Assembly (NCBI GenBank): GCA_017408045.1
Contig: JAFQVL010000020.1
Coordinates: 1 to 37,991 of the forward strand
Source of the DNA: Clostridia bacterium
GTDB taxonomy: Bacteria; Bacillota; Clostridia; Christensenellales; Borkfalkiaceae
Direction of reading: 5' to 3'
Length of the DNA stretch: 37,991 nt
This document shows positions 6,287 to 23,727 of the stretch, one piece after another. The notes under the pieces are model-generated. The model made no database searches. It saw only the letters and a list, made by a program, of their open reading frames with translations, and was not told the origin of the DNA. How positions within the stretch are numbered: position 1 is the first letter of the stretch; every line of letters starts with the position of its first letter. Both the position numbers and the translations under genes were made by a program.

Positions 6287-6332
6287 GTCGGATTTGCTAC
6301 GCAATACTCTGTCGAACTGTGGCAACCCTCGG

Positions 6333-6383
6333 TCATTTACGCATAGTAAACTCCCTCAAGTTATCCTCGCTCTCCTCGTCTTG
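6333..6383 (+). repeat. Intergenic repeat element, copy 1
   Basis: TCATTTACG-cata-GTAAACTCCC (6333-6355, an imperfectly palindromic TTTAC/GTAAA core), followed 26 nt later by TTGCTTGC. The same core and spacing recur at 26517-26573. Neither copy is coding. It occupies the gap between the 124-aa gene and the shared terminator; nothing else was seen there. Confidence 0.5.
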
Positions 6384-6441
6384 CTTGCAACTGCGACTTA
6401 AACGCGATACAGCGGTACACTCCGCATTTAAAATAGCGCAC

Positions 6442-22616: not shown

Positions 22617-22645
22617 TTGACAAAACGAACAAAATTTCGTATAAT
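22617..22645 (+). promoter_or_regulatory. Promoter of the structured RNA / ruvCAB-queA
   Basis: TTGACA (22617-22622), 17-bp spacer, TATAAT (22640-22645), full consensus. Transcription should start near 22651-22652, exactly at the first base of the inverted-repeat element. Confidence 0.85.
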
Positions 22646-22650
22646 AGAGA

Positions 22651-22956
22651 GGCTCTATCACATCACTTGGTTGATTTTTGAACCGCCGTTTTGAAATACT
22701 GCGCGATATTGCATTAAACTGCGCTTTGTTTTGGTTGCGTACAACGGGTACGCGCCCTGCAACAAATGCTCGTTTGCCTTATCTCGCTTGTATTTGAAAA
22801 CGGCTCGGAAAAATAATTGCGAAATACTTCGTGTTTTGCTCGGTTACAGACCGCTGAGGGTATGCGCCCTCACAAAACGCTTGTCTTTCTTATATTTTTC
22901 TCGTCAACCCAACAAAAAATTTTTGTCGTAAATCAACCATTCTCTGTGACAGAGCC
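22651..22956 (+). ncRNA. Candidate large structured RNA upstream of ruvC
   Basis: About 306 nt with no plausible protein. The ends pair: GGCTCTATCACA (22651-22662) with TGTGACAGAGCC (22945-22956), one mismatch; a symmetric 5x5 internal loop; then TGGTTGATTT (22668-22677) with AAATCAACCA (22930-22939), perfect. Inside are two hairpins with matching loops: GGG-TACGCG-CCC (22746-22757) and TGAGGG-TATGCG-CCCTCA (22855-22872). The second sits in a three-way junction closed by GUGUUUUG (22831-22838) with CAAAACGC (22873-22880). It is either an independent RNA, a long ruvC leader, or a MITE with ISL3-like GGCTCT ends. No SRP, 6S, tmRNA or RNase P signature was seen. Confidence 0.6.
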
Positions 22957-22974
22957 TATAGTGGAGGCAAAGGT

Positions 22975-23727
22975 ATGGTCATTTTGGGTATTGACCCCGG
23001 CTTGGCAACGCTGGGCTATGGGTTAATCCGCAAGGATGAAAACGGAAAATGCGAGGTCTTGGACTACGGCGTGGTCAGCACGCCCAAGCAAGAGAGCTTG
23101 CCTACAAGGTTGGTGCTGTTAGAGGACGGCATCAATCAGATTTTGCGTAAGTATCATCCAGACCAAATTGCGATGGAGGAGTTGTTCTTCTCCAAAAACA
23201 TCACGACGGGTATTGCCGTCGCCCACGCAAGAGGGGTGGTGTTGCTTGCTTGTGTGAAATACTGTCCCTATCTCTACGAATACACGCCTATGCAAATCAA
23301 GCAAGCCTTAACCGGCTACGGTCGGGCGGAAAAGGCGCAAATGCAGCAAGTGGTGGCGACGATGTTGGGCTTAGAAAAAATCCCCAAGCCCGATGACGCG
23401 GCAGACGCTTTGGCGATTGCGCTCTGCCACGCAACGGCAAGCCGTTTTGGCGGCTTGTTCAAGGTGGAGAATATGACCCGCACAAAGGGTAAAAACACCG
23501 AGGCGGGCAACGCCTTCCAAAAGCTGATGCAAGAAACCATCAAAAAAGAAGACAAAAAGGCGCAAAAAAAGGCGGTGAGCGGCTCTACCCACAGTAGAGT
23601 TGGAAAACCGACCAGCGCAAAGAAGACGGTTGCGCCTGTGGCGCAAGCTCCACGCTTGAATACCGCGTCGGAGATTGCGCGGAAGATTGCCGAGCAGATG
23701 CAATCGGCAGACAAGAAAGGAGAATAA
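22975..23727 (+). CDS. ruvC: Holliday junction resolvase RuvC
   Basis: Endonuclease that cuts Holliday junctions with RuvAB. MVILGIDPGLATLGYGL starts the RNase H fold; acidic residues Asp7, Glu68 (AMEELFF) and the Asp140-144 cluster (PDDAADALAIALCH) form the active site. The catalytic domain ends near residue 155. The total of 250 residues is about 80 longer than usual, from a Lys/Ala-rich C-terminal tail (KKEDKKAQKKAVSGS..., then NTASEIARKIAEQM) that looks flexible and basic. SD GGAGG before the ATG at 22975. First gene of ruvC-ruvA-ruvB-queA, preceded by the candidate RNA. Confidence 0.95.
   Translation: MVILGIDPGLATLGYGLIRKDENGKCEVLDYGVVSTPKQESLPTRLVLLEDGINQILRKYHPDQIAMEELFFSKNITTGIAVAHARGVVLLACVKYCPYLYEYTPMQIKQALTGYGRAEKAQMQQVVATMLGLEKIPKPDDAADALAIALCHATASRFGGLFKVENMTRTKGKNTEAGNAFQKLMQETIKKEDKKAQKKAVSGSTHSRVGKPTSAKKTVAPVAQAPRLNTASEIARKIAEQMQSADKKGE

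Follow-up and report, generated by a model that had tools for sequence, protein, structure and literature searches.

The window, by which we mean the whole analysed stretch of 37,991 nucleotides from a draft genome of a Clostridia bacterium, carries at positions 22651 to 22956 an inverted-repeat element that separates the predicted promoter of a gene from its predicted ribosome-binding site. We take the gene to be ruvC, the name that the first-pass annotation of this DNA had also given it. The features that matter for the argument are as follows.

22617..22645, plus strand: predicted native ruvC promoter, TTGACA-17-TATAAT (12 of 12 consensus bases; a similar promoter in 25 of 26 relatives)
22643..22650, plus strand: left flanking 8-mer, read as a decayed target duplication (5 of 8 positions match 22957-22964)
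22651..22956, plus strand: the element in its two-core long form, very probably a MITE (dispersed over about 12 places in its own genome; 8-bp duplications across the family)
22651..22677, plus strand: left terminal inverted repeat (end pairing; terminal pattern found in the genus)
22693..22796, plus strand: core D1, the nested second core (covariance model R1, 31.3 bits, E 4.6e-5)
22805..22907, plus strand: core D2, common to the family's usual short form (model R1, 105 bits)
22912..22926, plus strand: short palindrome ACAAAAAATTTTTGT adjoining the right repeat (sequence reading)
22930..22956, minus strand: right terminal inverted repeat (end pairing)
22957..22964, plus strand: right flanking 8-mer, read as a decayed target duplication (5 of 8 positions match 22643-22650)
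22963..22967, plus strand: GGAGG, predicted ribosome-binding site of ruvC, lying outside the element (sequence reading)
22975..23727, plus strand: presumed ruvC, an open reading frame of 250 aa to which the folded leader would be attached (matched in 51 of 57 genus genomes)

Much of the anatomy that had been described from the letters of the window is present. At the ends of the element, 11 of 12 pairs form, a 5x5 internal loop follows, and 10 of 10 further pairs close behind it; the whole has a minimum free energy of -109.5 kcal/mol (z -7.2), and none of 100 shuffled sequences was equally stable. Both hexaloop hairpins are there (GGGTACGCGCCC at 22746 and GAGGGTATGCGCCCTC at 22856), each trailed by similar text (CAAATGCTCGT at 22763 and CAAAACGCTTGT at 22873, with CTTAT at 22778 and 22889), although the counterparts lie 110-112 nt apart rather than the 109 nt first given. 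The internal duplication is real, because R1, a covariance model trained on copies of the second core, also detects the first core, and the two are therefore homologous. D1 sits between TTTTTGA and CGGAAAAA and separates the left repeat from the first stem. The palindrome beside the right repeat differs in sequence from copy to copy. The longest open reading frames overlapping the 306-bp element are 66 and 69 aa, both with TTG starts, and the element has no transposase gene. A scan of the element against Rfam, at gathering score or E up to 1, gave no match; a 5S rRNA gene at positions 21-135 is the sole gathering-score Rfam match in the window. The window also holds, at 6293-6391 and directly after an open reading frame, a further core-like repeat with a TTTACgcatAGTAAA hairpin and a weak match to R1 (20.6 bits, E 0.025).

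The element is one of many. In its own genome, a draft of 1.28 Mb in 80 contigs that is 81% complete, BLAST returned 17 pieces at about 12 places: two complete long copies (the window's and one on contig C15), a third that is nearly complete and abuts a contig end (C50), left halves at two other contig ends (C40 and C60), five mainly single-core copies, one with a hybrid core, and one short decayed copy. Across the genus, element matches occur in 40 of 57 genomes and the terminal pattern in at least 29 of 57, against 0 for a reversed-pattern control; no autonomous copy bearing the terminal pattern stands among the genus matches listed. The usual form has one folded core and measures 165-205 bp (58 of 66 full-length copies), and the window copy is longer by a second, homologous core, D1, which is found in the window, C15, and L026. 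Species genomes of GTDB r220 were scanned for the core motif, GGTTACAGACCGC-N3-GGGTATGCGCCCT, and 48 of the 51 stretches recovered come from metagenome-assembled genomes titled Clostridia or Clostridiales, many of the titles naming the gut of sheep, goat, or deer. Neither plasmids (blastn with the 102-bp core) nor phages (306-bp query) returned a match, and the core motif was absent from viral contigs. In a class-wide search with R1, whose strict filters can lose weak matches, the element's own genome stood alone among 391.

The flanks of the copies tell how they arrived. Among 66 distinct full-length copies taken from the fetched loci, 14 are bounded by perfect 8-bp target duplications, where about 0.08 would be expected, and in 25 the flanks agree at seven or more of the eight positions; the control fraction of identical flanking 8-mers, drawn from pairs of unlike copies, was 0.0012. 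Flanks of length 8 agree best, with a mean identity of 0.716 where the control gives 0.429, and length 7 comes second (0.563). The target 8-mers are rich in A and T, which make up 0.54 and 0.36 of the left flanks. The window copy's own flanking 8-mers match at only 5 of 8 positions, as had been reported, and this we count against the MITE explanation. The first-pass annotation had nonetheless put a stand-alone folded RNA ahead of a MITE, and that preference does not survive the finding of many copies at unrelated sites together with family-wide target duplications: the feature is a mobile element and not a stand-alone RNA gene.

Placement has a second component. In 21 of 65 copies, no more than 10 nt separate the left end from the stop codon of a sense open reading frame (80 codons or longer) upstream of it, and the mirror case at the right end occurs in 3 of 65 (p 0.0003); each context test took in 64 or 65 of the 66 copies. 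Background rates, from 1880 similarly AT-rich 8-mers outside open reading frames in the same flanks, were 8.7% for the left-type arrangement and 5.3% for its mirror. The clustering of left ends behind sense stop codons exceeds what a preference for AT-rich sites gives, and we treat it as a lead only, since the open reading frames were called mechanically. The window copy is not of this behind-stop-codon type.

Its position is instead at the promoter. The boxes are TTGACA at 22617-22622 and TATAAT at 22640-22645 with a 17-nt spacer, a match at 12 of 12 bases as the first reading had it, and the element begins 6 nt past the -10 box, at about +1. RuvC matches were obtained in 51 of 57 genus genomes, and 30 of these loci, one of them the window, were fetched; none of the other 29 has a match to the element at ruvC, and these are empty sites. 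Within 300 nt upstream of ruvC, TTGAC(A/T)-17-TANNAT occurs in 25 of the 26 relatives whose ruvC start was located (the start was not located in three of the 30 loci, L056, L062, and L078, which were left out), a count that was made without a shuffled control and in which all 25 matches have the 17-nt spacer. In 14 of these 25 the pattern ends 20-40 nt ahead of the start codon, and one relative, G013, has a promoter nearly identical to that of the window and lacks the element. Since relatives have a similar promoter without the element, the ruvC promoter looks native and older than the insertion, and the start of the element at about +1 is, on the same grounds, an accident of insertion. From these positions we predict that the ruvC mRNA would begin with the element's first base, or close to it, and would have about 306 nt of rod-like leader. 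A DNA-repair gene would in this way acquire a long folded leader not present in the fetched relatives.

A candidate for the enzyme that moves the family came from its ends. A scan of IMG/VR with the terminal pattern returned five stretches, three of which (L176, L178, and L179) hold a 1725-bp element with the pattern at both sides; when pairs of terminal inverted repeats 0.5-5 kb apart were sought in 179 loci, 11 pairs were found, and three of them were this same IMG/VR element with its transposase. Its left end agrees with that of the family, as read from the family alignment A1 described below, at 33 of 40 bases, with GGCTCTGTCACA and TGGTTGATTTTTGACG exact in the left ends of both, and its right end agrees at 21 of 28. 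Agreement is lower for the ends of the window copy itself (29 of 40 left, 20 of 28 right), which we count against the connection. The 1725-bp element, which is intact, encodes an IS1595-family transposase (NF033547, 196.5 bits; PF12762; PF12760) and also Lnu(C), and plasmid records annotate the same transposase as ISSag10 family. Of four copies read, those in L176/L187, L178, and L195 have perfect 8-bp duplications and that in L179 a 7-bp one. From its size, transposase, and lnu(C) gene, we infer that L179 is MTnSag1-like. L176, L178, and L179 are contigs classed as viral, and each carries an ISSag10/MTnSag1-like element that bears lnu(C), a gene for lincosamide resistance.

The published description of MTnSag1, in the accessible text of PMC5704250, mentions an IS1595 transposase, terminal repeats of 25 bp, repeats of 8 bp, and insertion preferentially at AT-rich sites. 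The likeness to our family is thus in the end sequences, to the extent given above, and in the 8-bp AT-rich target duplications; the family differs in having neither transposase nor cargo gene, with a folded core in their place, and in that no such IS1595 transposase was found in the genus. PF12762 was detected in 0 of 57 genus genomes, which are incomplete drafts in which a miss is possible, and this too is counted against the proposal; a protein search for IS1595 transposases gave 5 of 398 family genomes, none of them in the genus among the matches listed. Because the genus yielded no such enzyme, our claim is restricted to IS1595-type ends, and the mobilizer is putative. It is likely, judging from the end sequences, that an IS1595-family (ISSag10/MTnSag1-type) transposase acts in trans, and such an enzyme would recognize the GGCTCTGTCACA...GGTTGATTTTTGACG ends.

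The rival mobilizer proposed at the outset was an ISL3-family transposase, on the strength of ISL3-like ends. L085, the one ISL3 element of the genus that was compared, has an intact transposase and does share the GGCTCTGT start with the family. Duplications of 8 bp are also usual for ISL3 and speak in its favor. The agreement with L085 nevertheless stops at those first 8 bases, and the rest of the ends differ. The ISL3 transposase domain PF01610 gave no match in the element's own genome and was detected in 3 of the 57 genus genomes and 7 of the 301 family genomes searched. That an ISL3-family transposase moved this MITE seems to us very improbable, and ISL3 was rejected as the origin of the ends. 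We hold it to be highly probable that window 22651-22956 is a MITE, likely moved in trans by an IS1595-family (ISSag10/MTnSag1-type) transposase, with the predicted native promoter of ruvC on one side of it and the predicted ribosome-binding site on the other. Of the first interpretation, the folded and internally duplicated anatomy stands and the MITE that it named as its rival is supported; the functional RNA and the ISL3-like ends are not.

Of the 58 copies of 165-205 bp, 43 remained after removal of those at 93% identity or above, and alignment A1 comprises 41 of these, L006 and L011 having been left out for their irregular cores. RNAalifold on A1 gave 47 pairs, 27 of them with compensatory changes; shuffles had 27.4 compensated cells where A1 has 129, and the paired share of cells, 95.7%, fell to 40-46% when the alignment was slid. 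The two hexaloop hairpins, on which the RNA reading had laid weight, showed covariation no better than shuffles (89.5% against 88.8% paired in 41 members). A single apical hairpin did beat its shuffles (97.5% against 93.8% paired, with 4 pairs changed on both sides against 0.7).

Such covariation is what would commend a functional structured RNA, a leader or small RNA at the ruvC promoter that is also mobile, and the conserved tip motif, the promoter position, and the many copies oriented in sense behind genes can be added in its favor. The check on covariation that had been called for came out strongly positive by the number of pairs; the mismatch pattern, however, is unlike that of an RNA. 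Inner stems contain 28 G·U and 24 A·C mismatches, and all stems together 35 and 45, whereas 29 tRNAs analyzed as a control gave 27 and 5. The control used acceptor and T stems from phage T5 and the fetched loci, and it leans toward pairing, the finder favoring sequences that pair well. Inner stems differ from tRNAs at p 0.005 (Fisher), and in the outer repeats the counts are 7 G·U and 21 A·C (p 0.013), p-values that are indicative only because the copies are related. Minus-strand RNA could also give the outer-repeat excess of A·C, which could hint at that strand and which we count against our explanation. The even ratio in the inner stems favors a structure kept at the level of DNA. Together with the empty Rfam scan, the absence of the element at ruvC in 29 of 29 relatives, and the copies at unrelated sites, it leaves the structured RNA very improbable.

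We infer that the compensation in the stems is best explained at the DNA level and not by selection on one RNA strand. Hairpin or cruciform DNA could maintain it, as could template-switch correction of inverted repeats; template switching is described as a source of compensatory changes in inverted repeats in the accessible part of PMC8794818. The target duplications, the empty sites, and the even ratio of G·U to A·C offer ways to separate a mobile DNA palindrome from an RNA gene. This matters in practice: with high covariation, a consensus fold, a conserved tip, and a leader position, the family could well be called a new structured RNA by a covariance-based search.

A fold kept as DNA also brings to mind a REP-like palindrome whose mover would be a Y1 transposase (RAYT/IS200 type) acting on single-stranded hairpins. 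The hairpin architecture and the lack of RNA-strand bias in the inner stems would fit, and in relatives L049, L050, L052, and L054 there are core-like repeats at which no such ends were seen. The family, on the other hand, has 8-bp duplications and long terminal repeats, and Y1 transposition is not known to produce these; the duplications disfavor such an origin for this family, and we give it almost no credence.

As a MITE family with IS1595-type ends, it is ordinary in kind. Known bacterial MITEs, the Correia elements among them, are 100-200 bp long, take AT-rich intergenic targets, and have transcripts predicted to form long stems; immediately downstream of the mtrCDE promoter there is a Correia element (PMC10969869 and PMC2229807, in their accessible portions). 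Those elements differ from our family in their ends and in host group, and the same portions of the two papers contain no report, for known MITEs, of a core whose tip motif is strongly conserved, combined with family-wide compensatory changes. We found no description of this family in the literature on MITEs, IS1595, and template switching that was openly accessible, part of PMC8101967 included, a body of text to which subscription papers are mostly external. Our verdict is a new MITE family with IS1595-type ends.

The core may have a wider history than the ends. In the scan of GTDB r220 species genomes, its motif also appeared in three soil Verrucomicrobia, inside a different inverted-repeat element (L092 4131-4406, L119 5808-6084, and L120 4602-4877). 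Full-length matches to this element number two, one, and two in the respective genomes, and partial matches occur as well. A chance match is unlikely (about 1e-4 by our own estimate, which assumes uniform bases), because 26 fixed bases were matched in 257 billion. The Verrucomicrobia element has the same motif at its stem tip, and R1 scores it at 29.2 bits in L092 and 26.2 in L119; it differs from the family in its ends, TAGGAGCCTGATGAAGTACTCAGCC and similar, and in a target duplication that is possibly TA.

We speculate, tentatively and with more doubt than confidence, that the core of about 100 nt is an independent mobile module of folded DNA, carried by two or more inverted-repeat backbones that are unrelated and belong to different phyla (the IS1595-type MITEs of gut Clostridia and the other element of soil Verrucomicrobia) and occurring also without these ends. 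The tip motif of this module would be conserved because a factor acting on DNA hairpins or cruciforms recognizes it, and template switching at the DNA level would produce the RNA-like covariation, so that such elements would imitate noncoding RNAs in covariation-based discovery. Should the shared core be such a module, it would connect mobile repeats of distant phyla whose ends are unrelated. That the R1 search met the core in a single genome of the class, and that viral contigs lack it, we count against so wide a spread.

Three copies of 453-456 bp (L101 2093-2547, L112 586-1038, and L140 4982-5437) carry an insert of about 270 nt inside the core, at the same place in all three, and this nested insert has inverted ends of its own, GTAGCCAATC...GATTGGCTA, and differs from D1. 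D1-like cores also occur in two relatives directly behind a queA-like reading frame (L050 1498-1598 and L052 1485-1585), where the stem seems to include the final codons of the queA-like gene.
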